Shown: one piece after another, positions 21,361-64,000 of the stretch
Layout of the letters: the number at the start of each line of letters is the position of its first letter
Position numbering within the stretch: position 1 is the first letter of the stretch
Source of the DNA: Diphasiastrum complanatum
Taxonomy: Eukaryota > Streptophyta > Lycopodiopsida > Lycopodiales > Lycopodiaceae
Direction of reading: 5' to 3'
Length of the DNA stretch: 64,000 nt
Assembly: GCA_029204225.1 (NCBI GenBank)
Contig: CM055109.1
Span: forward strand, 49,190,599 to 49,254,598
The notes under the pieces: model-generated
What the model was told of the DNA's origin: nothing
The model's database searches: none
Seen by the model: only the letters and a program-made list of their open reading frames with translations
Made by a program: the position numbers and the translations under genes

Positions 21361-23154
21361 CTGATCACCAGTATATCGAATCGACTATCCTCCTGGGAGT
21401 TTTGCATTCGAGTATGTTGAAGTCTTCAATTATTATTTTTATATACTTTTGTTGGTGAAGATACAACTTGCCACCTTCAAAGTCTCTTTCGATCTGTAAG
21501 CCTAGATAGATTTTTGCTTCTCCTAGGTCAGTGATCTCAAATATTTCAGAAATGTCTCTTTTGACATTTGAAATCAATTTATATATTTTTTATTTTTGAG
21601 AAGATAAGCGTGTCATCAACATAAATAGCTAGAATGATAATTTCATCTTTGACATGTTTGATATAGACATTTGACTCAACAAATAAAGGTTCAAAGCCTA
21701 AAGAACGTAGTGCTTCATCCTTCTTTCTATACCATTGTCTGACTGCTTGTTTTAGACCATAGATGCTTTTATTCATGTGACATCTGAATTTTGGATATTG
21801 TTGGCTTATAAAACCAGGTTGATCCATGAATAAATCTTCTTCTAATTTTGCATGCAAGAACGCAGTTTTCTCATCTAGAATATGGATGAGATCATGAGCC
21901 ACTGCATAAGCGAATAACAAGCAAATTGATGTGTGTTTGACTACTGGTGAGAAAGTATCAATGTAGTCGATTCCATATTTTTGTGAAAAATCTTGTGCAA
22001 CCAACCTTGCTTTGTATTTGATGTTATCTCCATCAGGACCTGTTTTGATATTGTAGATCCATTTGCATTTAATTGGTTTTCTTCCATCAGGTATAGGTGC
22101 AAGTGTCCATACATTGTTCTTATACATCCATGACATTTTGTCCTCCATTACTTGAATCCAATGATCTTTATTTGGTCCATCAATAGCTTCCTCGAATGTT
22201 TGAGGTTCATCTATGAAGCCACAAAATTAGATGACTATATTTGTTGAAACATCATGACCAAACCTTACTGGTGGTTTTTTTTGTCTATCAGATCTTCTCA
22301 CAGTTTGTATAGGTTTTGAATTCAATTCTGTTTATTTGGGTTTGACCTAGTCTGCTTGAATTCAAACTGGTGATTCGAGTCTTTCAGGTACTCGATCTTG
22401 AACTCTCTCTAAATCTGGTAATTCTTGTTCATCATCTGCTTGCTTTACTTCTGTCGTTGGTACTCATAATAAGTCTTGAGAATTTCATAGCCGACTAAGT
22501 CATTGTCTGCTATGTACTTTGACTCATTGAATTTGACATCTTGAACAACTTTTATTCTGCCAGTTTCGAGTATATAGACTCGATAATATGACAAATGTAA
22601 CTCGAATCCTACCAAAAAACCTTGTTCTATTCTTTTATTGAGTTTCTTTCTCAATTTGTTTGGTATGTGCATGCATAAACTGCACATCCGAATGTTCAAA
22701 CATGAGCAAGATTTGGCTTCGACATAAACATCTTTATGAAAGGTGTTCGATTCATTTTGTCTTTAAGACAAGATTTGCAGGTAGTTCGAATATCTCGACT
22801 CTTGATTTTCACTTCTTCGATTCTTTGACTCTTGTTGGCTTGGTACAAGGCTTTCATGTTCATGTGACATAACCTCTTGTGCCACAAAATATCTATCGAT
22901 TCTTGAGTTTGATTTGCTTGTTCGATTCGAGTTCGAATGTTCAAGTGATACAAATCACCTTCTCTGTTACCTTTAGCAACTAGGTTATCAAAATCTTCAT
23001 CAAACAATTTACAAGAGTCCCTTGTAAAGGTTACTGACATTCCTGTATCGACTATCTTTGCTACGGATAGAAGATCTTTATCAAGAGTAGGAACATAGAG
23101 AACTTCCTCATGAAATTTTAGCATAAGTGATGAAAATCCCAAAATAGGCTCCAA
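21361..23154 (-). pseudogene. Copia element 4 protease-integrase-RT fragment
   Basis: In minus order, protease-end and integrase sequence lies at 23154-22696 (VLYVPTLDKDLLSVAKIVDT, LWHKRLCHMNMKAL, CKSCLKDKMN). An integrase C-terminal piece is at 22699-22445 (SLCMHIPNKLRKKLNKRIEQ, GFLVGFE). RT spans 22148-21579 and 21577-21365, with WTLAPIPDGRKPIKCKWIYN, ARLVAQDFSQKYGIDY, DTFSPVVKHTS, SIYGLKQAVRQWY, IYVDDTLIFS and GEAKIYLGLQI. RT breaks off after LECKTP, exactly where the copia element 3 LTR begins. RNase H and both LTRs are missing. Confidence 0.85.
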
Positions 23155-23289
23155 AAATGACCAGGGTTAAGCTTTTGAGATAAATTTGGACTTAACCAGA
23201 AAATGCTTGAGGTTAACTGGATTTCTCCAGCATACAATAGGCTTCGGCATGTCTTGCAGCTCCGGGACTTGTTGGCAGAGCCGGTGTAG
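23155..23289. other. Short unassigned spacer left of the telomeric seed
   Basis: About 135 bp join the copia fragment to the telomeric dimer at 23290. Nothing recognisable was found. It contains GGGTTAAGCTTTTGAG at about 23164, a partial echo of the PLE terminus GGGTTAAGC. Confidence 0.35.
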
Positions 23290-23303
23290 TTTAGGGTTTA
23301 GGG
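23290..23303 (+). repeat. Interstitial telomeric dimer (TTTAGGG)2
   Basis: This is two perfect plant telomere repeats, with the G-rich strand on plus. They abut the 3'-truncated end of the diverged PLE reverse transcriptase to the right. The complementary CCCTAAACCCTAA supplies the last codons and stop of that ORF. Orientation matches the other PLE-telomere junctions in the window. Confidence 0.9.
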
Positions 23304-24070
23304 TGAAGCCAGATTGAGGCGTGTTCGAAAATGTAACCATTGTAGGAGCAAATGGGTATGCCGACTAGAATAGGTTTATGAATTTTGGGAAGAAGATAAA
23401 ATGTACAAGCTCTAAAATCTTTTTCAGGAATTTGGAGAATGTTTTTTATTTCTTCTTCAGTCAAAATTGCAGAGTGTTTCAAACATGCCAACTGGATTCT
23501 GTCAAACAATTCTACCCAAGGAATTTCAGAAACAGAGAGATAGACCTTGTTATCTGAGAGTTGGGAGAGACCTTCCTTTTCATACCAAGTTTGGTTGAGA
23601 ATAACAAGTCCTAAATTTTTATCAGCCGGTTTGATGATAATGGAATTATCAGAAACTAGATGTTTAAGGGCTACTCTGAGTTTTCTTGGTAGGTAAGGTT
23701 TGTGAGTCCTTGGAAGGGAATCAATGAGGTCTGTGAAGAACTGTTTACCGATGTCTAAGATATTTTCAAGAACGGAAAATTTGTTAGGAGGTTCCCAAAG
23801 GCCACTAGAAATTCTAAATGGCGAGAAGCTATCTTCAGAAGTCTTGAAAAAGTATCTGAGACGAAAAGATCTACAAAGTTGTAGATAGCTAGAAAATAAA
23901 TCAGAAGATGGAGGGCACAAAGGATGAGGAATGTAGTTCAAGCCTAAACCTAAAAGCTTCTTCTCATCGTAAGAAAGTATTCTATCAGAGAGATTATGAA
24001 TAGCAGTATTAGTTATTCTATAATCTACTTCAAACGAAGATTTCTTACTGAAGAGTAGAAGAGTGTAAAG
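23291..24070 (-). pseudogene. Diverged PLE (family D) reverse transcriptase, 3'-truncated
   Basis: Minus-strand sequence aligns over its length to the N-terminal 40% of the complete Penelope RT at 56359-58218. Matching blocks are FEVDYRITNTAIHNLSDR, KKLLGLGLNYIPHPLCPP, SIIIKPADKNLGLVILN, YLLPKIHKPILVG and GYIFEHASIWLH. After IWLH the frame runs straight into the telomeric CCCTAAACCCTAA, so the palm motifs with the catalytic Asp residues are absent. There is no ATG at the expected place just after ORF1 and the copy is not functional. KPADKNLG and YLLPKIHKP are diagnostic of PLE rather than LINE RTs. Confidence 0.9.
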
Positions 24071-24078
24071 TTTTGGGT

Positions 24079-25265
24079 CTAGAACCGGGAGCCAGAAGAG
24101 GGACCTGCAATGCCTTTTCCTTTCTCGCGATGATGAGGAGGAACGTAAACAATTGCGGTATTTTTCTGAGCTTTGGATTGATGTTGTTGATGACTGGATC
24201 CCCCAGATTTCTGGATGGATTGGCTTCTCTTTGAAGAGAAAGTACGACCAGCAGAACGGAAAGTCGTCCTTCCTCTCTGTTGTTGCTCGTTTTTTGGCCC
24301 ATTTTTTGGTTTTGTCTTCTGATTTCGATTCTGTTGAGGCTGCTTCTGTTGCGGCGACTTGTTTTGTTGAGGTTTCGTCGCAGGAGCAGGAGCAGGAGTA
24401 GTTGCGCGCTGATTTGTTTGCTGCAACTTTTGTGGTTGTCGCTGTTGTTGTTGTTTGAGTTTCAGCTGTTTCGCAACCTCCAGACGGATGAGCTCTACAA
24501 CGGAGTGTTCTTTGGGCAACGTGTCAGCATCATCCATGGCATGATCTCTTGCTTCTTCTCGTGCAGCAAAAGTTGCCCTTTTGGCAGTTTCTTTAAGGTG
24601 CGAAGAGAAGAGGTAAGAGTTCGAGAGATTGAGGAACTCCGTGGTCAGCTTCTGTTCCCAGAAAGCTGCAAGAGAGTTGGTGTTGATGATGGAACCGACT
24701 GGTTGTACTTCTTCGATCGGTGCCAGCAGGTCTTTCAACTTGTCGCTGAAACTTACAGAGACGTTCGTAAGTGACGATTTTTGCGCGTTGCTCATGGTTT
24801 GGAAAGCGTCGATGTATGCACTGAAGCAGTCCATACGGTACTTCTCTGTGATCTCTGTTAGTTTGGAGGTCAAGAGATTTTGCGCTTCCAGGTGTGGCAC
24901 TTGAATTTTAGGAGCGGCAATCTTGAAGCTGTGAGGGACTAGACCTTCTTGCTTCAAAGAAGTGAACTTTTTCAGCGTCGCTTCTGTTTTTGCAGCAAGA
25001 AGATGCTGCTTCTTGAACCTTTCAAAGCTCTTTTTCGCGAAGCCGGTGATCTCCACAGTAGCAAAATGTCTGTAAGACTTGTTGCTGAATTTGTTTGTGG
25101 ATGTTCCGGTGCAGGTTGCGGGGCATTCTGTTGTTGCGGTGCAAACTGCGGAGGCGGCGCTTCTTCTAGAGAAGCTTGTCCGATGTATTGTGTGAGTAGC
25201 TGATGTGTTGTTGCTTCGGTAAAGTCAAAGTGTGTTCTTTTGCTAGGGCCAGCTTGAGACGCCAT
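24079..25265 (-). pseudogene. Family D PLE ORF1, one frameshift
   Basis: The ATG at 25265 opens MASQAGPSKRTHFDFTEATT, then a Gln/Pro/Ala-rich stretch. A frame change near 25060 passes into a frame open to 24079 (EITGFAKKSFERFKKQHLLA ... SGSRF, stop). The middle has amphipathic helices (ALKKFTS-type, AARRE-type). The C-terminus is very basic and Gln/Asn-rich (QQQRQPQKLQQTNQ, QQNRNQKTKPKNGPKN). This is the same architecture as ORF1 of the tandem units at 58218-60251, though little primary sequence is shared. It sits directly upstream of the RT on the same strand. A nucleic-acid-binding Gag-like role is inferred from composition only. Confidence 0.75.
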
Positions 25266-25275
25266 GGTAGAGTTC

Positions 25276-25285
25276 AGGGTTTAGG
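25276..25285 (+). repeat. Telomere-like boundary between two family D PLEs
   Basis: AGGGTTTAGG lies 10 bp upstream of the ORF1 start codon of copy D, on plus with G-strand orientation. To its right begins sequence typical of a PLE 3' region with a hammerhead. It occupies the same place as TAGGGTTA between the tandem units at 55488 and 60263. Confidence 0.7.
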
Positions 25286-25761
25286 ACAGCGGAACAAGGC
25301 TAGCAGTGACACTAAGCAAAAGAAATAAACGTTTCTTGAACAGAAAGAATACAAGATTTTATCTAGAAAAGATAAAGAACTGAAGCATTCAAGACAAGAA
25401 CGATATGAAAGATGGAGCAGAGACAGATAACGTGAGAAACTGAATCTCTATTACAAGAGGTGTTTAATTCCAAACTAGTTTCGCTTGATCGCTCAAGCTC
25501 ATCAGTGGAACACCGTAAAGAGTGAGTTTTACAAAGGTTTTCTGTCTCATATATACTCCAAGTGAGCGAGACTGGGATTGCTTACGTGGCACGCTGATGA
25601 CAAGGCCCCACTTTCCAAGAACGGGAACGGTGGTAATAGCCGTTGTACCAGTGGCGCTAAAAATTTCGAAAAATTAAGCTAGAGACCTGATTTTTGGTCC
25701 TGAACTGTCATAACTTGCTCAAAACACATCAGAATTACATGCGTAATGGCTCTAAACCACT
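25286..25761 (-). mobile_element. PLE copy E: 5'-truncated 3' region with hammerhead
   Basis: This is non-coding DNA between the telomeric motif at 25276 and the telomere tract at 25762. It contains a hammerhead ribozyme at 25459-25514, about 175 nt from the inferred 3' terminus (25286). That spacing is close to the spacing in unit B once the (CT)n tract is subtracted. I interpret it as the last ~475 nt of a family D-like PLE added distal to copy D, 5'-truncated and then capped by telomere repeats. Apart from the ribozyme core and the motif at the terminus, similarity to unit B is low. Confidence 0.65.
25459..25514 (-). ncRNA. Hammerhead ribozyme (PLE type), copy E
   Basis: Minus-strand order is as follows. 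Stem I 5' strand GGUG+UUCCA is at 25514-25506, core CUGAUGA at 25505-25499 and stem II GCUUGA at 25498-25493. The tetraloop is GCGA and stem II closes with UCAAGC at 25488-25483. Core GAAA is at 25482-25479, then CUAGUU with cleavage expected after U at 25473. Stem I 3' strand UGGAA, bulge UUAAA and CACC end at 25459. Stem III is the minimal self-complementary ACUAGU, which can pair in a dimer. The whole invariant core is present. Family knowledge: minimal type-I hammerheads occur in PLEs and retrozymes. Confidence 0.9.
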
Positions 25762-25976
25762 GGGGGGTTTAGGGTTTAGGGTTTAGGGTTTAGGGCTTAA
25801 GACGTAGGGTTTAGGGTTTGGGGTTTAGGGTTTAGGGCTTAGGGCTTAGGGTTTTAGGGTTTTAGGGTTTTTAGGGTTTAGGGTTTAGGGTTTAGGGTTT
25901 AGGGTTTAGGGTTGAGGGTTGAGGGTTGAGGGTTGAGGGTTTAGGGTTTAGGGTTTAGGGTTTAGGGTTTAGGGTT
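25762..25976 (+). repeat. Interstitial telomeric tract (TTTAGGG)n
   Basis: About 215 bp of plant telomere repeat has its G-strand on plus, so its original distal end points right. Variants include four consecutive TTGAGGG (25912-25939), several CTTAGGG, and units with an extra T. The last repeat runs without a break into AGCAACTAAGAGAA, the 3' terminus of the tandem-array PLE family. Confidence 0.95.
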
Positions 25977-26232
<256 letters not shown>

Positions 26233-50674: not shown

Positions 50675-52210
50675 TCACTGCGGTGGCCAGTACTTGTGCA
50701 ATTGGCTACCGTTGACGGGTGTATCGAACGGTGTCCCATCTAGCTTCTCTAGATTCACGGCTCCATGATTAAGAATTCCTTTGATCTGATAAGGACCTTT
50801 GCTTGTGAATTTTAGTTTTTCCTTGATCGCCTTGGTTTCATATATCAGGACCAAATCTCTGGAACGAAGATCCTTCTTTTGTAACCTGTGATTGTGCCAT
50901 GCTTTGTGTCTTTTCTTCTCAACTACCAGTGCATGCGCAACTAGTAAGCGTGCTTCATAGTGTTTATGCAAAGCTTCGTGGCGTAGTTGTAGATATTTGG
51001 ATTCATTAAGGCGTTGTGTTGCGGCAATCCTTAATGAAGAGACTAAAAACTCTATTGGCATTACAATGTCCTGACCATATACCAATTGGGAAGGTGTTTG
51101 ATCAGTGCTTCCCTTATATGTTGTCCTAAATGCCCATAGAACAACATGCAACTAGTGTTCCCAATCTGATCTGCTAGCTTCAACTGTTTTCGTGAGCACG
51201 CTACATAGGATCTTATTGGATGATTCTGTTTGTCCATTACCGCGAGGATAATAAGGCGTACTGGTTCTATGGATCACGAAGAATTCCTCCAACAAGACCT
51301 TGATGGTCTCATTGATAAAATGACTTTCACAATCGCTGACTATCTCCACCGGACATCCAAAGTGCACAATGATATTTTCATAAAGGAACTTGGCAGTTGT
51401 CCTAACATTAGCTACTCTTACTGCCTTGGCTTCGACCCGTGGCTACGATTATGTATCGAGCCTGGGTACTCCTTGCTGCAAGGTGAATTGGACCAATGCA
51501 ATCCAATCCCCACTTTTTGAATGGTGCTTGGGCTAAGACCAGGTGCAGTAGATCATAATTCAATCTCGTTGGTCTCCTTGCCCTTTGGCACACATCGCAC
51601 TTCCTCAGGTATTCCTCCGTATCCTTATGAATTGTTGGCCACCAACATCCTGATTGCAGAATCTCGCAAACTGTAATGTCGGATGCAAAATGGCCTCCAC
51701 CCGTGTCTTCATGTGAAAGCAAAATGATTTGGGTGGTCTCATGAGGAAGAATACATCGTCGAAGAATCCCATCTGGTTCTTTTCGGTATAATTGGCCGGC
51801 AATCAATTGATAAGGTCTAGCTTTCAAGATCAAGTTTTGCTGATCCTCCTTTGGTAGTGATTTGTCTGTTTGGCCCCACATTAGATATTCAACAATGTCA
51901 GCAGCCCATTCTGGTACTGTGTCCACGTAAAATAAGACAGCATCAGCCAGCTCATCGTCAGGTTGGATTGCAACCTCCTTTCCCTTGATTTGCAAGACAC
52001 GATCTGCCATGTAGTGTTGTTGTTCCTTGCAGACTACTATCCAAAAATCAAACTCCAACAACAGAAGTAGCCATCTGGTGATTCTCCCTGAGTTGCAAGT
52101 TTTGTTAACGAGATAGAGCAAGGGTTGATGGTCCATATAAAAAGCAAAATGTGTGGCCATCAGGTAGTGCCGAAATTTCTTAACCGCATAGATCATTGCC
52201 GACGCTTATC
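50675..52210 (-). pseudogene. Ty3/gypsy RNase H-integrase fragment
   Basis: The minus strand starts in RNase H (IYAVKKFRHYLMATHFAFYM, DHQPLLYLVNK). It continues through a linker to the integrase zinc domain (HEDTGGGHF..., CDVCQRARRP) and the first catalytic block (KKWGLDCIGPI). A break near 51408 separates 51367-51152 (CPVEIVSDCESHFINETIKV, STPYYPRGNGQTE). After a stop comes 51151-50675 (LWAFRTTYKGSTDQTPSQLV, YGQDIVMPIEF, KGPYQIKGIL), the integrase C-terminal part. Catalytic Asp and Glu positions are recognisable (LDCIG, SDCES with Asp, GQTES). Stops make it non-functional. It lies between the two arms of the inverted duplication. Confidence 0.88.
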
Positions 52211-53880: not shown

Positions 53881-53892
53881 GCTGCGGATAAA

Positions 53893-54268
53893 CTCTCATG
53901 ATGTGTTCTTCAAGTCTAATGTCAAGTGGAAGTGACAAGGATTCATGGTGGATAGATAGTGGATCTAGTTCACACATGACTAGTCACAAGGAGTTCTTTA
54001 CTTCTTTGATCTCTTATGTTGGAACCAAGAAAGTCGTTCACATGCCAAATGGTGGTGAGTGTATGATCAAAGGTATTGGCTCAATTCCTATTTGCCTTTC
54101 TACTAATAGGAATGTAAGGCTTGATGGTGTTCTTTACATTCCTTCACTTTCAAGGAATTTGCTAAGTGTTGGTCAAATGTTAAAAAAAGGGTACAAGGAT
54201 GTTTGCTTCATTACTAAGGGAGATGTCTTGATTGCTAGGGGCAATAGACAAGGTAGACTTTACAAGGT
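53893..54268 (+). pseudogene. Copia element 6 protease fragment
   Basis: A plus-strand frame reads KDSWWIDSGSSSHMTSHKEF, then VVHMPNGGECMIKGIGSIPI, RLDGVLYIPSLSRNLLSVGQ and ARGNRQGRLYKVE. This is the aspartic protease (DSGSSSHM) and following segment of a copia polyprotein, with no stops in this piece. It is fused at both ends: to a gypsy RT fragment on the left (opposite strand) and to PLE copy A on the right, with a short AGAG overlap at 54269-54272. Confidence 0.88.
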
Positions 54269-55476
54269 AGAGTTTCCGTGGCCGAATCCAAAATGCTTTT
54301 GATACTCAAAAGATCTTTTTCTTTTACCTCAAGGAGAGCAAGGTGAAGACCGTTGCGGAATTTTAGAGTCAAATCCCGAACTTTTGATTCTAAAGCCTCT
54401 TGATGAAAATCGGAACCCTGCAGCTTTGGGAAAGCAATGCGGCAAGAATGAGGCGTTTCACCGGCGACAAGTTGGCTCTTAAGCTTTTCAATGGAAGCAT
54501 GAAGGCTGTGGTATTTACGGAAATCCCGCTTATAGGTGGCCATTGAATCTTTCAGAATGGATTGAATTGCAGAAGAAAAGGACGGATGCTCCAATTCTTG
54601 AAGAAACTGGTTCTTAGGCAATTGCAGAGATGGCAAAGAAGCGGGATTGACAGCGGGATTGGAAGAAGATGGAGCGGAAAAAACTTGCGGCGAAGCAAAA
54701 AGAGGAGCGAGCTGCTGTAACAGAGAGGGGTTTTGTTGCAGTAGTTGCTGTAAAGCGGCAAGAGCGGCAGCGGACGGTGGTGGCGGTACGGTGGCAGCGA
54801 ATGGCGACGGTACGGCGGCGTCGGGCTGCGGCAAACCAGCGGCTGTGGCAGCGAAGGCAGCGGAGCTGGCAGCGGGATCAGGGGCAGCGGCAGCAGCAGC
54901 AGCAGACTGCTGCGCAGCAGCAGTCTGTACGGACTGCTGTACGGACTGCTGCTGCGCAGCACTGAAAAAATGTTGCTGCGCAGCAGCTTGCAGCGCGGCG
55001 GCAGGCTGGAACGCAGCAGCAGGCTGGAACGCGGCGGCAGCGAGCTGGAGCGAGGAGGAGGAGGCAGCGAGCTGGAGCGAGGAGGGGTAGCAAGCGGCAG
55101 CGGACTGCTGCGCAGCAGCAGAGGGCGGCGGAAGGACCTGCGCAGCAGCAAGAAGAAGCTGCGCAGGGTTTTGCAGGGGAGGCGCATCCTGAGCAGGCGG
55201 TAAGGCGGCAAAAGCGGCCTGATCCGGGGGCGGAGGAGCGATGAATCCCTGAAAAGAGGTGCTCAGAGCGGGCAGCGATGGCTGAGGATGATCAGAGGTA
55301 GAAGCAGCAGCAGCATTAGCCATTTCTTCCTCGGAAAGCAGCATACCGGCAGCACGAGCTTGAGCATACAAAATGATCTGTTGTTGTTGCCAGAAATCAG
55401 GAGCTTCTTCCATAGCTGAAGAGGGAGTTCTCGAACGCTTCCGGGGTCTCACAGAATCTTCTTCGCTAGCTATCAT
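54269..55476 (-). pseudogene. PLE copy A: ORF1 5' part, truncated
   Basis: From ATG 55476 the minus strand encodes MIASEEDSVRPRKRSRTPSS. It remains identical in translation to ORF1 of unit B for about 400 residues, up to SILDSATETL. There the copia protease fragment replaces the rest. ORF2 and the whole 3' region of this copy are absent. The 5' end is intact and joined head-to-tail with unit B through TAGGGTTA at 55488-55495. Its truncated 3' side carries no telomere repeats, so this break is probably a later DNA-level rearrangement. Confidence 0.92.
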
Positions 55477-55487
55477 AAAGACACGAA

Positions 55488-55495
55488 TAGGGTTA
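55488..55495 (+). repeat. Telomere-like octamer at PLE unit boundary A/B
   Basis: TAGGGTTA lies 11 bp upstream of the copy A ORF1 start codon and immediately next to AGCAACTAAGAG, the 3' terminus of unit B. The same terminus is joined to genuine (TTTAGGG)n at 25976. I therefore read this octamer as a remnant of telomere sequence (or the element's own telomere-complementary end) marking the join. Confidence 0.75.
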
Positions 55496-55622
55496 AGCAA
55501 CTAAGAGAAATATGTAGCAGTAGAGAAGAAGATAAACGATACAATGAACGAATCAGAGTAGTAAACTAAAGAGAGACGGATCATGACAGATCTTAATCAC
55601 ATGTAAAGCGAGTGAGAGGAAG

Positions 55623-55726
<104 letters not shown>

Positions 55727-55776
55727 TAGAGAGAAGAGACACTTTTGCACACAAATGAAGGGAAAGTACTGATCAA

Positions 55777-55824
55777 TAGCAAAGCCAGACTAGTTTCGCT
55801 CGTGAGAGCTCATCAGTGGCGCTA
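55777..55824 (-). ncRNA. Hammerhead ribozyme (PLE type), unit B
   Basis: On minus: stem I 5' strand UAGC+GCCA (55824-55817), CUGAUGA (55816-55810), stem II GCUC (55809-55806), loop UCAC, GAGC (55801-55798), GAAA (55797-55794), CUAGUC, with cleavage expected after C at 55788. Then comes stem I 3' strand UGGC, bulge UUU and GCUA (ends 55777). All core nucleotides are present. Stem III is the palindromic ACUAGU, so an efficient fold probably needs a dimer or multimer, as known for minimal PLE hammerheads. In a tandem transcript it would release unit-length RNA. Confidence 0.93.
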
Positions 55825-55926
55825 AGGAAGAGGTGGACAGACCCCACACTCTCCAAAAGTACTAACTACAAGTGAGAGCAAAAGTGAGCCAATGTATGGC
55901 TTTTATACTAGAAGAAATGGAATAAT

Positions 55927-56345
55927 CCCTGAGCATATGCTTCCAAGGGTCCAAAGTGCTAGTAGGCTAAAGTGCAGGTAGGGCTAAAGTGCTAGTAGGC
56001 TAAAGTGCAAGTAGGGCTAAAAATGACCGTTTGGGCTTAAAAAGTGACCGACGGAAATAACCGTTAGGTCGAATGTAGCCGACGGAGCATGAGAAGCACA
56101 AACTGCAGAAATAGCTAATTTTTTCAAATTTTTTCTAAGACTAGCAGTACCAACCAATGCCGATGATGCAGAAAAAACTGCTAAAAATAGGCATGGGGCA
56201 AAAATAGCTAAACTACCTGAAAAAGCAGTAAAACCCCGAGCTAATGCTTCAAGGGGTGAAGATTACAATGGAAAGAGTAAAACCCTGAGCAAATGCTTCG
56301 AAGGGTGAACAATACATAGTAAAACCTCGAGCCAATGCTCCGAGG
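55927..56345 (-). ncRNA. Four repeated hairpins in PLE 3' region, unit B
   Basis: Plus coordinates are 55927-55949, 56234-56256, 56283-56305 and 56325-56345. Each has the form CCCN-GAGC-NAAT-GCTT/C-N-NGGG. Outer stems are CCCT/AGGG, CCCC/GGGG, CCCT/AGGG and CCTCG/CGAGG; the inner stem is GAGC/GCTT or GAGC/GCTC with a four-base loop. Paired changes keep the helix. Three of them start within 14-130 nt after the ORF2 stop on the sense strand. A 33-bp tandem repeat (55953-55985 and 55986-56018) sits between the first and the others. A role as RT or ORF1 binding site is inference. Confidence 0.7.
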
Positions 56346-56358
56346 GTGAGGAAGTACA

Positions 56359-58218
56359 TCAGTGAAATCTACTGTGAACCAAGTAACCCTGTAAGTTACG
56401 AGCCCGGAGCCAACAGATGATAGGCCGTCCGAAAAGTGTCGATAACTGCGGATCTTTCAGGAATGCGTCCGAGAGTTTAGGGTTTAGGAATGCCCCAAGG
56501 TTTAGAGCCTGAGTAAAAGGAGAGTGCTCAAGCTTCAGCACCAGGGGGGCCCGCCGAACTCTAGGAGGACCAGGAAGACATGCATCGAGAAGAGTAGATC
56601 TATCACTGTATGAAGCAGCAGCAGCAAAGCAAAGCAGGATGAAAGCTCTGGGATAGCCACGAGCACGCAAGCGCTGATAAAAGCTGTGTCGAAGAGCAAG
56701 AAACCCATCCAAGGTACTTTCTCTGAGAATATAACGCTGAAGCTCGCCAAGAATGAAAGCACGCTTCTGGTGACGCGGGTGGCAGGAAGACCAAGGTAAA
56801 TACTGATACTTGTTAAGGCTCTTCTGATGACAACTGGAAGAAAGGATACCAGAAGAGCGAAAAGCAGCATCCTTCGAAAAACAAATGTCGAGGATATCTA
56901 TACTGAAGTCCGAAATCTGCCAGTGTATATGAATGGAGTCCACCAAGGAATCATACCTAGAGAGCCAATGCTCAAGAGAAGTGCGAGAACCCTGCCAGAT
57001 ACCAAAACCATCGTCGATGAAGCGCCTGAAGTAGATAGGCCAGGAGGAAGGGGTCGAAGAAACTGCCAAATCATACTCCAAACTGCAAAGGAAGAGACAA
57101 GCGTAGACAACTGCAAAGCTGGTACCCATAGCTGTACCTCTGACCTGAAGCCAAAAATCTGCATCAAACTGAATGTAGTTATGCTCAAGGACTAAAGAGG
57201 CAAGATTGAGAACAAGTCTTTCCAAAGGAACAGAGGAAAGCCTGCCAGCAATCATAGACTGAAGACGTCGAAGACCCTCCTGAGTAGGAATACTCGGATA
57301 CAGAGATTCGATGTCAAATGAAAACAGCAGAATGTCCTGACTAAACTGCCTAGAAGATAAGTCTCTCAGAAGAGCACGAGAATCCACAAGGTGATTAGTC
57401 TCCGACAAAAGAATAGGAAGTAGCTGATAATGAAGCCATCTGGACGCATGCTCAAAAATGTAACCAATGCTAGAGCAAATAGGACGACCCACCAGAACGG
57501 GCTTATGAACCTTCGGAAGAAGATAAAATAAGCAGGCACGAAAACCAGTAGCAGGCACAAAAAGGATAAACTTAAGAGTAGCAGAATCAATAGTGCCTAA
57601 AGCATGAGCAGGAACAACTAAAGATTCAAGTAAACTCCATAAGTAAGACCAAGGGATGTGCGGAACAGAGAGATAAACTGAGGTATCGTGAAGATGCCTA
57701 TATGCTTCAGAAACATACCAAGATCTGGAGAGAATGGTAACCCCTAAATTCTTATCAGCAGGTTTAATGACAATAGACTCATCAGAACGAAGCGAGCGAA
57801 GAGCTAGCATAAGCCTACCATGAAGAAAAGGAGAAAAAGAGTTTCTGGAGACAGCAGAAAGGCGAGAAAGGATAATATCACGACCCATAGAAATAATACT
57901 CTCAAGTTCAGGGTTTAGGTCGAAATTACTCCAGGAAAGGTTAGGAATACGAAAAAGAGGAGTAGAATCCACACTGTTTCTAAAATGAAAAGACAAGCGT
58001 AAAGTACGAGCAAACGAATCAAAAGCAGAAAGAACAGAGTCATGAGAAGGAGGAGAGGGGTGAGGAATAAACCCGAGACCATAACTGAGAAGCTTCCTCT
58101 CATGGAAGGAAAGAGTGCGATGAGCCAGGTTATGAATAGCAGTATTGGTGATTCTGTGATCCACCTGGAACGTCGAGAACCTCCCAAAGAGAAAGACTGC
58201 ATAGCCATGTCGATCCAT
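56359..58218 (-). CDS. PLE ORF2: Penelope-type reverse transcriptase, no endonuclease
   Basis: 619 aa from ATG 58218, whose A is also the last base of the ORF1 TGA stop (TGATG). The N-terminal PLE block has HRITNTAIHNLAHR and LLSYGLGFIPHP. Next comes IVIKPADKNLGVTIL at ~150, then FYLLPKVHKPVLVGRP at ~231. Palm motif A is SFDIESLYPSIP at ~300, motif B RGTAMGTSFA at ~360, and motif C FRRFIDDGFG (Asp-Asp) at ~397. The thumb-end block FGRPIICWLRARNLQGYLV closes the protein at its C-terminus. Nothing follows that resembles GIY-YIG, so the protein lacks its own nuclease. It presumably copies the element RNA from an existing 3' end such as a telomere. All catalytic Asp residues are present and the frame is intact. 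Confidence 0.95.
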   Translation of the reverse strand: MDRHGYAVFLFGRFSTFQVDHRITNTAIHNLAHRTLSFHERKLLSYGLGFIPHPSPPSHDSVLSAFDSFARTLRLSFHFRNSVDSTPLFRIPNLSWSNFDLNPELESIISMGRDIILSRLSAVSRNSFSPFLHGRLMLALRSLRSDESIVIKPADKNLGVTILSRSWYVSEAYRHLHDTSVYLSVPHIPWSYLWSLLESLVVPAHALGTIDSATLKFILFVPATGFRACLFYLLPKVHKPVLVGRPICSSIGYIFEHASRWLHYQLLPILLSETNHLVDSRALLRDLSSRQFSQDILLFSFDIESLYPSIPTQEGLRRLQSMIAGRLSSVPLERLVLNLASLVLEHNYIQFDADFWLQVRGTAMGTSFAVVYACLFLCSLEYDLAVSSTPSSWPIYFRRFIDDGFGIWQGSRTSLEHWLSRYDSLVDSIHIHWQISDFSIDILDICFSKDAAFRSSGILSSSCHQKSLNKYQYLPWSSCHPRHQKRAFILGELQRYILRESTLDGFLALRHSFYQRLRARGYPRAFILLCFAAAASYSDRSTLLDACLPGPPRVRRAPLVLKLEHSPFTQALNLGAFLNPKLSDAFLKDPQLSTLFGRPIICWLRARNLQGYLVHSRFH

Positions 58219-60251
58219 CAAGGGCCACCAGAAGAGCTTCCGAGAACGGTGCCCTTCATGACTGGAGAACGGTTCCTTGGTGAAGCTGGATTTTGTCCCT
58301 TGCCACTGTACTGAAATCTCTGAGTGTTCTGCCTTTGATTTTCTTGCTTTCTTTGATTTCCTTGCCTTCTTTGATTTCCTTGTCTTCTTTGATTTGCCGT
58401 TCGATTTCGATTTTGATTTTGACCTTGCTCTTGCCTCGGAATTTGGTTTGACCAGGAAACTCTCTTTTGGGGAGAGGGTGTCTTGGTTTTGAGAGAACCA
58501 GGAAGAGGTAAAAGGGGGCCTAAGGTGCTCCGGGAAGATGAATGCAATGCAGCGGAAGGGGTGGGAGCAGTCCCATTCCTGCGAGGCCCGTTTCCCTGAC
58601 GAGAAGGGCTAGGAGAAGGCTTGCGACGTGAAGAAGGAGGAGTCGTAGAGCGGCCTCGATTCTTAAGGATAGGAGTGGGAGAAGAGCTTTGGGGCTTGCC
58701 TAAAAGTCTGTTGATCTCCACTTTTAACTCTTTAAGAAGGTCTTGCTTGACAGAGAGGGTAGCTTTTTTAACGAGCTCGGAAACACCAACATCAGAGGGG
58801 ATGGATTGTGCTTCAGTCATGGCTTCATCACGGGCAAGGTTTCTATCTTTCAAAGCATTCTCTTGAACAGCAGAAGAAATGGCAAAATCGGAATGGAGAG
58901 TATAGACAAAGAAATCCCAGGCGTTCATGGCATCTTGAAGGAGAGACTCAAGGGCCAAAGAAAAGGTGGAAGAGCCAAAATGAGAGAGTAAAGGGTCAAC
59001 GGGAGGGCAAGACTTAGTTTTTACTTCCAAAAGACGAAGTCTGAGAGTTTCCGTGGCCGAATCCAAAATGCTTTTGATACTCAAAAGATCTTTTTCTTTT
59101 ACCTCAAGGAGAGCAAGGTGAAGACCGTTGCGGAATTTTAGAGTCAAATCCCGAACTTTTGATTCTAAAGCCTCTTGATGAAAATCGGAACCCTGCAGCT
59201 TTGGGAAAGCAATGCGGCAAGAATGAGGCGTTTCACCGGCGACAAGTTGGCTCTTAAGCTTTTCAATGGAAGCATGAAGGCTGTGGTATTTACGGAAATC
59301 CCGCTTATAGGTGGCCATTGAATCTTTCAGAATGGATTGAATTGCAGAAGAAAAGGACGGATGCTCCAATTCTTGAAGAAACTGGTTCTTAGGCAATTGC
59401 AGAGATGGCAAAGAAGCGGGATTGACAGCGGGATTGGAAGAAGATGGAGCGGAAAAAACTTGCGGCGAAGCAAAAAGAGGAGCGAGCTGCTGTAACAGAG
59501 AGGGGTTTTGTTGCAGTAGTTGCTGTAAAGCGGCAAGAGCGGCAGCGGACGGTGGTGGCGGTACGGTGGCAGCGAATGGCGACGGTACGGCGGCGTCGGG
59601 CTGCGGCAAACCAGCGGCTGTGGCAGCGAAGGCAGCGGAGCTGGCAGCGGGATCAGGGGCAGCGGCAGCAGCAGCAGCAGACTGCTGCGCAGCAGCAGTC
59701 TGTACGGACTGCTGTACGGACTGCTGCTGCGCAGCACTGAAAAAATGTTGCTGCGCAGCAGCTTGCAGCGCGGCGGCAGGCTGGAACGCAGCAGCAGGCT
59801 GGAACGCGGCGGCAGCGAGCTGGAGCGAGGAGGAGGAGGCAGCGAGCTGGAGCGAGGAGGGGTAGCAAGCGGCAGCGGACTGCTGCGCAGCAGCAGAGGG
59901 CGGCGGAAGGACCTGCGCAGCAGCAAGAAGAAGCTGCGCAGGGTTTTGCAGGGGAGGCGCATCCTGAGCAGGCGGTAAGGCGGCAAAAGCGGCCTGATCC
60001 GGGGGCGGAGGAGCGATGAATCCCTGAAAAGAGGTGCTCAGAGCGGGCAGCGATGGCTGAGGATGATCAGAGGTAGAAGCAGCAGCAGCATTAGCCATTT
60101 CTTCCTCGGAAAGCAGCATACCGGCAGCACGAGCTTGAGCATACAAAATGATCTGTTGTTGTTGCCAGAAATCAGGAGCTTCTTCCATAGCTGAAGAGGG
60201 AGTTCTCGAACGCTTCCGGGGTCTCACAGAATCTTCTTCGCTAGCTATCAT
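58218..60251 (-). CDS. PLE ORF1: Ala/Gln/Pro-rich protein with basic tail, unit B
   Basis: 677 aa from ATG 60251. Residues ~10-20 (RPRKRSRTPSS) look like a nuclear localisation signal. Residues ~55-300 are Ala/Gln/Pro-rich low complexity, including AAAFQPAAAFQPAAALQAAA and LQQLLQQNPSLLQQLAPLF. Residues ~300-530 look globular and helical (FLQELEHPSFSSAIQSILKD, EKDLLSIKSILDSATETLRL, FSLALESLLQDAMNAWDFFV). The last ~140 are Ser/Pro/Arg then Arg/Gln/Asn-rich (NRTANQRRQGNQRRQGNQRK). No known domain is recognised. Position and composition suggest an RNA-binding, Gag-like or telomere-targeting partner of the RT; this is inference. The longer frame using upstream TTG/CTG codons is not needed. Confidence 0.88.
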   Translation of the reverse strand: MIASEEDSVRPRKRSRTPSSAMEEAPDFWQQQQIILYAQARAAGMLLSEEEMANAAAASTSDHPQPSLPALSTSFQGFIAPPPPDQAAFAALPPAQDAPPLQNPAQLLLAAAQVLPPPSAAAQQSAAACYPSSLQLAASSSSLQLAAAAFQPAAAFQPAAALQAAAQQHFFSAAQQQSVQQSVQTAAAQQSAAAAAAAPDPAASSAAFAATAAGLPQPDAAVPSPFAATVPPPPSAAALAALQQLLQQNPSLLQQLAPLFASPQVFSAPSSSNPAVNPASLPSLQLPKNQFLQELEHPSFSSAIQSILKDSMATYKRDFRKYHSLHASIEKLKSQLVAGETPHSCRIAFPKLQGSDFHQEALESKVRDLTLKFRNGLHLALLEVKEKDLLSIKSILDSATETLRLRLLEVKTKSCPPVDPLLSHFGSSTFSLALESLLQDAMNAWDFFVYTLHSDFAISSAVQENALKDRNLARDEAMTEAQSIPSDVGVSELVKKATLSVKQDLLKELKVEINRLLGKPQSSSPTPILKNRGRSTTPPSSRRKPSPSPSRQGNGPRRNGTAPTPSAALHSSSRSTLGPLLPLPGSLKTKTPSPQKRVSWSNQIPRQEQGQNQNRNRTANQRRQGNQRRQGNQRKQENQRQNTQRFQYSGKGQNPASPRNRSPVMKGTVLGSSSGGP

Positions 60252-60262
60252 AAAGACACGAA

Positions 60263-60270
60263 TAGGGTTA
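60263..60270 (+). repeat. Telomere-like octamer at PLE unit boundary B/C
   Basis: TAGGGTTA lies 11 bp upstream of the unit B ORF1 start codon and immediately next to the AGCAACTAAG terminus of unit C, exactly as at 55488-55495. Confidence 0.75.
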
Positions 60271-60397
60271 AGCAACTAAGAGAAATATGTAGCAGTAGAG
60301 AAGAAGATAAACGATACAATGAACGAATCAGAGTAGTAAACTAAAGAGAGACGGATCATGACAGATCTTAATCACATGTAAAGCGAGTGAGAGGAAG

Positions 60398-60487
<90 letters not shown>

Positions 60488-60537
60488 TAGAGAGAAGAGA
60501 CACTTTTGCACACAAATGAAGGGAAAGTACTGATCAA

Positions 60538-60585
60538 TAGCAAAGCCAGACTAGTTTCGCTCGTGAGAGCTCATCAGTGGCGCTA
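60538..60585 (-). ncRNA. Hammerhead ribozyme (PLE type), unit C
   Basis: Identical 48-nt copy of the unit B ribozyme, with cleavage expected after C at 60549. It lies between unit C ORF2 and unit B ORF1. Cleavage here and at 55788 would free an RNA spanning all of unit B coding sequence with a (CU)n-containing leader. Confidence 0.93.
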
Positions 60586-61119
60586 AGGAAGAGGTGGACA
60601 GACCCCACACTCTCCAAAAGTACTAACTACAAGTGAGAGCAAAAGTGAGCCAATGTATGGCTTTTATACTAGAAGAAATGGAATAATCCCTGAGCATATG
60701 CTTCCAAGGGTCCAAAGTGCTAGTAGGCTAAAGTGCAGGTAGGGCTAAAGTGCTAGTAGGCTAAAGTGCAAGTAGGGCTAAAAATGACCGTTTGGGCTTA
60801 AAAAGTGACCGACGGAAATAACCGTTAGGTCGAATGTAGCCGACGGAGCATGAGAAGCACAAACTGCAGAAATAGCTAATTTTTTCAAATTTTTTCTAAG
60901 ACTAGCAGTACCAACCAATGCCGATGATGCAGAAAAAACTGCTAAAAATAGGCATGGGGCAAAAATAGCTAAACTACCTGAAAAAGCAGTAAAACCCCGA
61001 GCTAATGCTTCAAGGGGTGAAGATTACAATGGAAAGAGTAAAACCCTGAGCAAATGCTTCGAAGGGTGAACAATACATAGTAAAACCTCGAGCCAATGCT
61101 CCGAGGGTGAGGAAGTACA

Positions 61120-62979
61120 TCAGTGAAATCTACTGTGAACCAAGTAACCCTGTAAGTTACGAGCCCGGAGCCAACAGATGATAGGCCGTCCGAAAAGTGT
61201 CGATAACTGCGGATCTTTCAGGAATGCGTCCGAGAGTTTAGGGTTTAGGAATGCCCCAAGGTTTAGAGCCTGAGTAAAAGGAGAGTGCTCAAGCTTCAGC
61301 ACCAGGGGGGCCCGCCGAACTCTAGGAGGACCAGGAAGACATGCATCGAGAAGAGTAGATCTATCACTGTATGAAGCAGCAGCAGCAAAGCAAAGCAGGA
61401 TGAAAGCTCTGGGATAGCCACGAGCACGCAAGCGCTGATAAAAGCTGTGTCGAAGAGCAAGAAACCCATCCAAGGTACTTTCTCTGAGAATATAACGCTG
61501 AAGCTCGCCAAGAATGAAAGCACGCTTCTGGTGACGCGGGTGGCAGGAAGACCAAGGTAAATACTGATACTTGTTAAGGCTCCCTTTATGACAACTGGAA
61601 GAAAGGATACCAGAAGAGCGAAAAGCAGCATCCTTCGAAAAACAAATGTCGAGGATATCTATACTGAAGTCCGAAATCTGCCAGTGTATATGAATGGAGT
61701 CCACCAAGGAATCATACCTAGAGAGCCAATGCTCAAGAGAAGTGCGAGAACCCTGCCAGATACCAAAACCATCGTCGATGAAGCGCCTGAAGTAGATAGG
61801 CCAGGAGGAAGGGGTCGAAGAAACTGCCAAATCATACTCCAAACTGCAAAGGAAGAGACAAGCGTAGACAACTGCAAAGCTGGTACCCATAGCTGTACCT
61901 CTGACCTGAAGCCAAAAATCTGCATCAAACTGAATGTAGTTATGCTCAAGGACTAAAGAGGCAAGATTGAGAACAAGTCTTTCCAAAGGAACAGAGGAAA
62001 GCCTGCCAGCAATCATAGACTGAAGACGTCGAAGACCCTCCTGAGTAGGAATACTCGGATACAGAGATTCGATGTCAAATGAAAACAGCAGAATGTCCTG
62101 ACTAAACTGCCTAGAAGATAAGTCTCTCAGAAGAGCACGAGAATCCACAAGGTGATTAGTCTCCGACAAAAGAATAGGAAGTAGCTGATAATGAAGCCAT
62201 CTGGACGCATGCTCAAAAATGTAACCAATGCTAGAGCAAATAGGACGACCCACCAGAACGGGCTTATGAACCTTCGGAAGAAGATAAAATAAGCAGGCAC
62301 GAAAACCAGTAGCAGGCACAAAAAGGATAAACTTAAGAGTAGCAGAATCAATAGTGCCTAAAGCATGAGCAGGAACAACTAAAGATTCAAGTAAACTCCA
62401 TAAGTAAGACCAAGGGATGTGCGGAACAGAGAGATAAACTGAGGTATCGTGAAGATGCCTATATGCTTCAGAAACATACCAAGATCTGGAGAGAATGGTA
62501 ACCCCTAAATTCTTATCAGCAGGTTTAATGACAATAGACTCATCAGAACGAAGCGAGCGAAGAGCTAGCATAAGCCTACCATGAAGAAAAGGAGAAAAAG
62601 AGTTTCTGGAGACAGCAGAAAGGCGAGAAAGGATAATATCACGACCCATAGAAATAATACTCTCAAGTTCAGGGTTTAGGTCGAAATTACTCCAGGAAAG
62701 GTTAGGAATACGAAAAAGAGGAGTAGAATCCACACTGTTTCTAAAATGAAAAGACAAGCGTAAAGTACGAGCAAACGAATCAAAAGCAGAAAGAACAGAG
62801 TCATGAGAAGGAGGAGAGGGGTGAGGAATAAACCCGAGACCATAACTGAGAAGCTTCCTCTCATGGAAGGAAAGAGTGCGATGAGCCAGGTTATGAATAG
62901 CAGTATTGGTGATTCTGTGATCCACCTGGAACGTCGAGAACCTCCCAAAGAGAAAGACTGCATAGCCATGTCGATCCAT
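61120..62979 (-). CDS. PLE ORF2 reverse transcriptase, unit C
   Basis: 619 aa, translation identical to unit B ORF2 except one spot (CHKGSLNKY versus CHQKSLNKY, at plus 61580-61586). That spot reflects a cluster of four base differences. All RT motifs (KPADKNLG, LPKVHKP, FDIESLYPSIP, GTAMGTSFA, RFIDDGF) are intact. The start again overlaps the ORF1 stop as TGATG. Confidence 0.95.
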   Translation of the reverse strand: MDRHGYAVFLFGRFSTFQVDHRITNTAIHNLAHRTLSFHERKLLSYGLGFIPHPSPPSHDSVLSAFDSFARTLRLSFHFRNSVDSTPLFRIPNLSWSNFDLNPELESIISMGRDIILSRLSAVSRNSFSPFLHGRLMLALRSLRSDESIVIKPADKNLGVTILSRSWYVSEAYRHLHDTSVYLSVPHIPWSYLWSLLESLVVPAHALGTIDSATLKFILFVPATGFRACLFYLLPKVHKPVLVGRPICSSIGYIFEHASRWLHYQLLPILLSETNHLVDSRALLRDLSSRQFSQDILLFSFDIESLYPSIPTQEGLRRLQSMIAGRLSSVPLERLVLNLASLVLEHNYIQFDADFWLQVRGTAMGTSFAVVYACLFLCSLEYDLAVSSTPSSWPIYFRRFIDDGFGIWQGSRTSLEHWLSRYDSLVDSIHIHWQISDFSIDILDICFSKDAAFRSSGILSSSCHKGSLNKYQYLPWSSCHPRHQKRAFILGELQRYILRESTLDGFLALRHSFYQRLRARGYPRAFILLCFAAAASYSDRSTLLDACLPGPPRVRRAPLVLKLEHSPFTQALNLGAFLNPKLSDAFLKDPQLSTLFGRPIICWLRARNLQGYLVHSRFH

Positions 62980-64000
62980 CAAGGGCCACCAGAAGAGCTT
63001 CCGAGAACGGTGCCCTTCATGACTGGAGAACGGTTCCTTGGTGAAGCTGGATTTTGTCCCTTGCCACTGTACTGAAATCTCTGAGTGTTCTGCCTTTGAT
63101 TTTCTTGCTTTCTTTGATTTCCTTGCCTTCTTTGATTTCCTTGTCTTCTTTGATTTGCCGTTCGATTTCGATTTTGATTTTGACCTTGCTCTTGCCTCGG
63201 AATTTGGTTTGACCAGGAAACTCTCTTTTGGGGAGAGGGTGTCTTGGTTTTGAGAGAACCAGGAAGAGGTAAAAGGGGGCCTAAGGTGCTCCGGGAAGAT
63301 GAATGCAATGCAGCGGAAGGGGTGGGAGCAGTCCCATTCCTGCGAGGCCCGTTTCCCTGACGAGAAGGGCTAGGAGAAGGCTTGCGACGTGAAGAAGGAG
63401 GAGTCGTAGAGCGGCCTCGATTCTTAAGGATAGGAGTGGGAGAAGAGCTTTGGGGCTTGCCTAAAAGTCTGTTGATCTCCACTTTTAACTCTTTAAGAAG
63501 GTCTTGCTTGACAGAGAGGGTAGCTTTTTTAACGAGCTCGGAAACACCAACATCAGAGGGGATGGATTGTGCTTCAGTCATGGCTTCATCACGGGCAAGG
63601 TTTCTATCTTTCAAAGCATTCTCTTGAACAGCAGAAGAAATGGCAAAATCGGAATGGAGAGTATAGACAAAGAAATCCCAGGCGTTCATGGCATCTTGAA
63701 GGAGAGACTCAAGGGCCAAAGAAAAGGTGGAAGAGCCAAAATGAGAGAGTAAAGGGTCAACGGGAGGGCAAGACTTAGTTTTTACTTCCAAAAGACGAAG
63801 TCTGAGAGTTTCCGTGGCCGAATCCAAAATGCTTTTGATACTCAAAAGATCTTTTTCTTTTACCTCAAGGAGAGCAAGGTGAAGACCGTTGCGGAATTTT
63901 AGAGTCAAATCCCGAACTTTTGATTCTAAAGCCTCTTGATGAAAATCGGAACCCTGCAGCTTTGGGAAAGCAATGCGGCAAGAATGAGGCGTTTCACCGG
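62979..64000 (-). CDS. PLE ORF1, unit C (partial, 5' end outside window)
   Basis: The C-terminal ~340 residues match unit B ORF1, including the helical middle (SILDSATETLRLRLLEVK), the Ser/Pro/Arg segment and the NQRRQGNQRRQ tail. The frame is open to the window edge. The apparent internal start near 63908 is only a TTG inside the longer frame. Confidence 0.88.
   Translation of the reverse strand, partial: GETPHSCRIAFPKLQGSDFHQEALESKVRDLTLKFRNGLHLALLEVKEKDLLSIKSILDSATETLRLRLLEVKTKSCPPVDPLLSHFGSSTFSLALESLLQDAMNAWDFFVYTLHSDFAISSAVQENALKDRNLARDEAMTEAQSIPSDVGVSELVKKATLSVKQDLLKELKVEINRLLGKPQSSSPTPILKNRGRSTTPPSSRRKPSPSPSRQGNGPRRNGTAPTPSAALHSSSRSTLGPLLPLPGSLKTKTPSPQKRVSWSNQIPRQEQGQNQNRNRTANQRRQGNQRRQGNQRKQENQRQNTQRFQYSGKGQNPASPRNRSPVMKGTVLGSSSGGP

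Follow-up and report, generated by a model that had tools for sequence, protein, structure and literature searches.

Background

Endonuclease-deficient (EN(−)) Penelope-like elements (PLEs) are reported to prime at exposed chromosome ends, with telomere repeats added at their truncated 5′ ends (PMC3846280, PMC12477314, PMC9033089). The Terminons of Adineta vaga, giant elements based on Athena, are described as forming head-to-tail arrays, with 5′ telomere repeats and with reverse-complement telomere letters next to a 3′ hammerhead (PMC6431247). Poseidon/Penelope of Anolis (PAc) forms tandem repeats with pseudo-long terminal repeats (pseudo-LTRs), and its reverse transcriptase (RT) starts in vitro inside the RNA, shortly after the junction of the pseudo-LTR and the open reading frame (ORF) (PMC11167929). 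Here, we analyzed a head-to-tail array of an EN(−) PLE in the lycophyte Diphasiastrum complanatum, which lies in a 64,000-nt stretch of DNA (the window; bases 49,190,599–49,254,598 of contig C18). We put at about 0.7 the probability that this element extends chromosome ends, with its RNA primed at a telomere complement and with copies that end telomere-like. HeT-A/TART and SART/TRAS, which are telomeric non-LTR retrotransposons, are likewise chromosome-end retroelements, with an RT of a different class.

With Athena of bdelloid rotifers and the EN(−) PLEs of fungi, protists, Selaginella and conifers, the element has in common a TERT-like RT without GIY-YIG, chromosome-end priming (proposed for our element) and 5′ telomere repeats. 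It differs from them, to the extent that they are described there, in carrying a telomere complement at the pseudo-LTR/ORF1 join that is copied through tandem arrays, and in having a telomere string in the RT gene as its preferred 5′ end; string and join motif both occur in two families, family 1 being that of the array. The likeness to Terminons extends to the head-to-tail arrays, the 5′ telomere repeats, the 3′-side telomere complement and the hammerhead (here a hammerhead-like motif). In contrast to Terminons, the unit measures 4.8 kb with two ORFs, no accessory gene was seen and it is not giant; moreover, the telomere complement does not adjoin the hammerhead-like motif but is separated from it by 300 nt in family 1 and by 188 nt in family 2. 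Tandem pseudo-LTR units and an internal RNA start, the latter proposed for our element, are shared with PAc, whereas PAc has GIY-YIG, cuts AT-rich DNA and starts at a site not homologous to the cut DNA (PMC11167929); the start site proposed here matches the telomere primer. No description of a telomere string within a PLE RT gene serving as a 5′ end was found in the literature surveyed, which omitted some primary papers.

Organization of the array and its coding capacity

Contig C18 comprises 49,264,098 bases of a 1.74-Gb assembly with 23 large contigs of 42–102 Mb, and all results below come from the DNA of this single assembly, in which some blocks are N. The array and its features, with copy B as the reference unit, are as follows.

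54269..55487, minus strand: copy A, 5′ part only (unit 1–1219), with a copia-type pol gene adjoining on the left
55488..60262, minus strand: copy B, complete 4775-bp tandem unit
60263..64000, minus strand: copy C, from the unit 3′ end to the window edge, continuing outside
55488..55495, plus strand: octamer TAGGGTTA at the A/B join; the coding strand holds AACCCTA, one telomere repeat complement
60263..60270, plus strand: octamer TAGGGTTA at the B/C join
58218..60251, minus strand: ORF1 of copy B, 677 aa, with a low-complexity A/Q/P stretch and a basic C-terminus; its stop overlaps the ORF2 start (TGATG)
56359..58218, minus strand: ORF2 of copy B, 619-aa RT of PLE/TERT type
61120..62979, minus strand: ORF2 of copy C, 619 aa
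55488..56488, minus strand: pseudo-LTR part of copy B (unit 3775–4775), found again at the 5′ end of the longer insertions at other loci
53892..54266, plus strand: copia-type pol remnant left of copy A (Pol_BBD, E 3.6e-25)

An original prediction, made from the letters of the window, had described three same-strand copies repeating every ~4.77 kb (A partial, B complete, C running to the edge), with an octamer exactly at both joins. The arrangement was borne out by in-register copy starts at 54269, 59044 and 63805 (spacing 4775 and 4761; 100% identity across the reported stretches), with the coding strand on the minus strand, and the octamers were located at both joins, 11 bp from the ORF1 start as predicted. 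In the window TAGGGTTA occurs 5 times against 1.23 expected, and 1 of 100 shuffles reaches 5; the A/B and B/C octamers count as one repeated sequence rather than two independent observations. To the right of the window, 9.5 kb more of the array follow, in which what is left of copy C precedes a full unit and the greater part of a further one; the contig ends there, within the array, and the terminal telomere is not reached on C18. A GA run in the 3′ region (55625–55739 and 60400–60500) varies in length among otherwise near-identical units, and contig C9 ends in such a run. Remnants of LTR retrotransposon integrase genes (Integrase_H2C2) lie on the minus strand at 31556–32380 and 51408–52196.

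Each unit consists of ORF1 (677 aa), which is a separate ORF upstream of the RT, ORF2 (619 aa) and ~870 bp of 3′ sequence with the GA run; the only further ORF of at least 150 aa in the 4775-bp unit sits out of frame within ORF1. ORF2 encodes a PLE/TERT-type RT with intact catalytic residues. Its top matches, the first 14 VIA rows and the first 6 Foldseek rows, are telomerases, and it groups with Selaginella and Cryptomeria proteins. No match to a solved structure was obtained with the single RT sequence, and an alignment profile gave weak matches to RTs of other kinds (best E 9.9e-06). The claim that the RT lacks GIY-YIG held: PF01541 was not found in ORF1 or ORF2, while the control P0075 does match it. 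No Pfam family scored above its cut-off for either ORF. ORF1 had no database relative at E ≤ 0.001 and weakly matches ORF1 of family 2 (26%, E 4e-7). Rfam microRNA matches across the low-complexity part of ORF1 fell far under their cut-offs and were rejected. ORF2 is full length in 19 of the 21 bodies, and comparison of the most diverged body (C7i) with 18 others gave dN of 0.005–0.009 and dS of 0.033–0.042, these comparisons not being independent of one another. The element is an EN(−) PLE whose RT is kept intact by purifying selection.

Octamer joins and telomere tracts

Each of the 27 tandem joins that were read has AATAGGG followed by TTAA, including those of the diverged C9 subfamily and of a C2821 deletion form. 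Body/body or body/pseudo-LTR differences within an insertion amounted to 0–6 (C18), 0–1 (C17), 0 (C9), 0 (C1557), 0–2 (C2821) and 0 (C515), and to 0 on both arms in the first C16 insertion. Because it is identical in 27/27 joins and the bodies on either side are usually near-identical, the octamer must be copied along with the element and is no addition scar, which sets aside its interpretation as the priming scar of each addition. Since it travels with the element, the 4.77-kb units of the array need not be separate additions. Telomere tracts, across which elements usually differ more (25/4517, 34/2439, 13/4137, 41/1302, 7/2429 and 6/1489 body differences), are the marks of separate additions. 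The claim of a telomere octamer at every boundary accordingly stands for the tandem joins but not for the element boundaries proper, where the telomere tracts are tens to hundreds of bp long. The preferred reading of the 4.77-kb units of the window is a single multi-unit copy or a later local expansion, and the C18 array itself may have expanded in this way. A derivative that lacks most of unit 1–635 (ORF1) stands twice in tandem on C2821 (loci L057 and L058), with the octamer join kept.

Chromosomal position and 3′ ends

A search with the last 28 nt of the element at ≤3 mismatches gave 72 occurrences, and the reversed control gave 0. Of the 47 matches on the 23 large contigs, 34 lie ≤50 kb from a contig end (0.07 expected), tandem copies being counted singly so that the 47 are not independent. 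These near-end matches occupy 12 of the 46 contig ends, a lower bound, given that 8 further left ends sampled at 200 bases gave N in 5 cases and non-telomeric DNA in 3. Thirty of the 34 point outward; of the four exceptions, one is on C14 and the others all belong to the same arm of a mirror-image stretch at the C16 end. Among the 13 matches >50 kb from the ends, 8 were readable, of which 6 sit on telomere tracts and 2 are tandem. Both C16 and C14 terminate in TTTAGGG repeats. The original prediction had placed the old terminus to the right of the array, which is contradicted by the contig end 9.5 kb rightward, by the outward matches and by the rightward extension of the copy from a TTTAGGG-strand 3′ end; growth is to the right, and the old side is the left.

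The mirror arms on C16 (C16:51415000-51441102; loci L017–L019) consist of PLE insertions with 0/4518 and 3/4475 differences, standing before a ~1.4-kb terminal TTTAGGG tract, and represent either a fold-back duplication or an assembly fold-back.

The 3′ flanks were readable for 57 of the 72 copies that keep the last 28 nt, the group that this count covers (3′-less copies such as copy A fall outside). Thirty adjoin TTTAGGG-type repeats, 27 continue into the 4.77-kb tandem join and none adjoins other DNA; joins to non-telomeric DNA, which in most termini would have contradicted the original prediction, were thus seen in 0 of these 57. Counts of 3′-end/telomere joins, tandem joins and family 2 seeds refer to the loci read. 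The telomere joins all stop at one fixed point of the element, in the registers TTGC followed by TTAACCC, by CTAAACCC or by TAAACCC, with TTGT or TTTT variants. The register with TTAACCC is the product expected of a primer ending TAGGGTT paired with AACCCUA of the tandem join, and for each of the other registers the pairing lies a few bases farther upstream and includes one mismatch. The several registers point to several priming events or lineages. One such join lies in the window itself, beside the family 2 copy described below.

25765..25976, plus strand: interstitial TTTAGGG tract (212 bp) running directly into a family 1 3′ end
25970..26230, minus strand: family 1 3′-terminal fragment on that tract

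Inverted tracts of the form (CCCTAAA)n, a CTCAC-like spacer and (TTTAGGG)n adjoin element 3′ ends at an internal C10 site (L020 ~9055-9070) and at the C14 end (L023 ~9221-9230).

The in-gene telomere seed and the 5′ ends

A second telomere-like string, hereafter the seed, was identified inside ORF2.

56475..56488, minus strand: telomere seed of copy B, CCTAAACCCTAAAC (unit 3775–3788), in the ORF2 codons for LNPK
61236..61249, minus strand: telomere seed of copy C

The 14-nt seed exceeds the longest telomere match in all 300 first-order Markov shuffles (maximum 12). Longer insertions consist of unit 3775–4775 and the bodies that follow it: C7, C16 and C3207 have one body, C17 has two and C1557 has at least three. 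Six of the 12 telomere-joined 5′ ends in normal orientation lie at unit 3775 (C17, both C16 arms, C7, C1557 and C3207), a proportion that is not unbiased in that the loci were reached via full bodies and 3′ ends. All six joins pass in phase from the seed into telomere repeats. A genome-wide pattern of the seed plus a third repeat occurs at 7 places, which are the six seed-site ends and one C9 body; in the latter the seed is longer by exactly two repeats, the aligned rest shows no substitution relative to its neighbor, and ORF2 is cut to 582 aa. Of 38 internal seeds inspected, 37 were unchanged. At the protein level, LNP is aligned in 10 of 119 rows, which are the query and nine relatives, namely P0004 and P0009 (both Cryptomeria), P0007 (Selaginella), P0001, P0003, P0006, P0008, P0012 and P0014; three further Cryptomeria proteins are gapped at this position.

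Among the 5′ ends joined to telomere repeats in inverted orientation, those at unit 143 (C3 and C14; L021 4276-4316 and L023 4508-4548) share the same flank and are probably one duplicated locus, and the end at unit 49 (C15) lies at L024 ~5487. A 262-bp element piece (L013 615-876) stands reversed between two TTTAGGG tracts; position 4161, where this piece ends, is also the point of an internal deletion on C5025.

A second PLE family

The window holds a broken member of a second family, with an RT ~47% identical to that of family 1.

23101..25762 (ends approximate), minus strand: family 2 PLE
25276..25285, minus strand: CCTAAACCCT at the pseudo-LTR/ORF1 join, just before the ORF1 start
23289..23304, minus strand: family 2 telomere seed ACCCTAAACCCTAAAC, in the codons for LNPK
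25479..25505, minus strand: family 2 hammerhead-like core

In this copy the reading frame jumps at the seed, from about codon 268 to 568. Another copy, on C5025, has its 5′ end at its seed, beside telomere-type repeats; the two copies are 96% identical in this region and may be related. A family 2 piece on C11 ends in ...CTGTCCTAAACCCTAAA at the edge of the stretch read, where just 13 nt are visible; the 3′ end of this piece may adjoin telomere repeats at the place where the window copy has its pseudo-LTR/ORF1 join.

Hammerhead-like motif

Both families carry a hammerhead-like motif in the pseudo-LTR.

55784..55820, minus strand: minimal hammerhead-like motif of copy B, with the proposed cleavage point (55788) 300 nt short of the 3′ end
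60545..60581, minus strand: minimal hammerhead-like motif of copy C

The Rfam model HH9 matched family 1 weakly (20.2 bits versus a gathering threshold of 52, E 0.4), and no hammerhead was found by Rfam in family 2. By eye, the core CUGAUGAG...CGAAACUAGU appears complete, and stems I and II are predicted to pair in both families with different letters. Minimal type I hammerheads without helix III are known from PLEs and Terminons (PMC7761336). The predicted cleavage points lie 300 nt (family 1) and 188 nt (family 2) before the telomere complement; therefore, cleavage is not the source of the observed 3′ end. On the right C16 arm (L019 ~4646), the coding strand halts a few nt past the proposed cleavage point and gives way directly to TTTAGGG repeats that reach the contig end, a pattern resembling the healing of a broken end.

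Proposed mechanism and alternative explanations

The following model of chromosome-end extension is proposed. The transcript of a tandem copy would start near unit 3775, with the 5′ end CCUAAACCCUAAAC, and would span the pseudo-LTR plus one or more bodies. The TTTAGGG 3′ overhang of a telomere would anneal to UUAACCCUA at the pseudo-LTR/ORF1 join, from where the TERT-like RT would copy the RNA outward, with an internal start like that of the Anolis PLE. The DNA 3′ end of a complete copy would then be GTTTAGGGTTTAGG, which could be extended by telomerase or serve as a primer for new RNA. We propose that a telomere complement is present at both working points of the RNA, one for priming and the other for regenerating a telomere-like 3′ end; our addition to the known view of EN(−) PLEs is the seed on the 5′ side of the RNA. 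What is retained of the original idea of serial priming at a chromosome end is an EN(−) PLE that joins telomeric ends and builds up there serially, whereas the octamer as the scar of each priming is not retained. The fuller version, in which a self-renewing telomere extender has RNA with AACCCUA (family 1) or CCUAAACCCU (family 2) at the copy start and CCUAAACCCUAAAC, written as LNPK, at the 5′ end, and in which copies end TTTAGGGTTTAGG-3′, is tentative, and we consider the odds to be against it.

A number of observations weigh against extension by such priming. Both RNA ends are deduced from DNA, and read-through RNA into a neighboring telomere tract would also provide a C-rich 3′ tail, which leaves use of the 7-mer unproven. 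The remaining 6 of the 12 5′ ends lie away from the seed (3053, 3548, 3826, 4280, 4644 and 4651), and the seed ends on the two mirror-image C16 arms, if taken once, reduce the count to 5/11. Telomere repeats are inverted at the 5′ ends at 143 (C14, C3) and 49 (C15) and at a C13 fragment, and no telomere repeats were found at the C7 5′ end at 3227, at the C7 left end at ~4500 or at window position 26230, which is in a GA run. A second LNP (unit 2344) is encoded by a 10-nt telomere string and bounds 0 of the 12 5′ ends, and LNP could be retained for protein reasons. ORF1 is full length (663–677 aa) in just 14 of the 21 bodies. Differences within insertions are higher on C13 (2–18), C10 (5–7) and in the second C16 insertion (4/1984), pseudo-LTRs differ from their own bodies on C3207 (5/764) and C7 (4/756), and pseudo-LTR pairs across telomere tracts show as few as 0/766 (C1557), 4/767 and 6/764 differences. 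Finally, the lost 3′ side of copy A abuts the copia-type pol gene with no telomere repeats.

The clustering of 5′ ends might instead reflect transcription. If the in-gene CCTAAACCCTAAAC were a promoter element, the 5′ ends would cluster through the transcription start, and the telomere likeness would be a by-product. The plant telo-box AAACCCTAA occurs near start sites, and unit 3775, being the 5′ end of the insertions made of a pseudo-LTR and bodies, would be the RNA 5′ end, a point that is also compatible with the model of chromosome-end extension. The seed is nevertheless in phase with telomere repeats in 6 of 6 joins, which indicates telomere-end behavior, and so do the exactly two extra repeats of the C9 body, though slippage could also explain these; we regard the promoter explanation as unlikely. 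Still less probable, in our judgment, is recombination, by which one or a few founding insertions spread among chromosome ends through break-induced copying or unequal exchange via telomere repeats, the seed being a recombination site and the 4.77-kb arrays products of unequal crossover. It would fit the near-identity of neighboring bodies in most insertions, the near-additive differences along the C13 array, the 14-nt perfect telomere match at the preferred 5′ end, the mirror-image arms of C16 with a similar inverted pair on C5025, and the join of copy A to copia DNA without telomere repeats. However, copying from RNA predicts several 3′ registers at one point with scattered 5′ truncations on telomere repeats, purifying selection on the RT and a mostly single orientation at chromosome ends, all of which were found.

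Rolling-circle copying, in which the hammerhead would cut tandem RNA to 4775-nt circles and the RT would start at the telomere complement, go around more than once and end near 3775, could draw on the hammerhead-like motif of both families, on insertions in which a single pseudo-LTR is followed by 1, 2 or at least 3 bodies, and on the identical bodies within several insertions. Yet the pseudo-LTRs of C3207 and C7 and the bodies of C13 differ as given above, so that one circle would need later mutation, and hammerhead mutants leave insertion in vitro unaffected (PMC11167929), which makes this explanation very improbable. It is hardly credible that the tandem units and telomere tracts are misjoined reads: several contigs do end within arrays, one of them in a GA run, and some arms are mirror images, but the same joints recur on many contigs with differing tract lengths and flanking sequence.

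Biological implications

The analysis reveals a PLE without an endonuclease and with an intact RT near 12 chromosome-scale contig ends, whose additions can be read singly thanks to the telomere tracts that separate them, and whose two telomere-complementary strings predict where copying starts and ends. Should LNP in the nine relatives also be written in telomere letters, the trick would predate the lycophyte/conifer split. TERT and PLE RTs have a common ancestor, and it is an old question by what route a retroelement RT might turn into a telomere-making enzyme or take its place. If the proposed mechanism is true, either telomerase or the next element RNA could use a finished end directly, and the growth of chromosome ends by such arrays might in principle need no telomerase.

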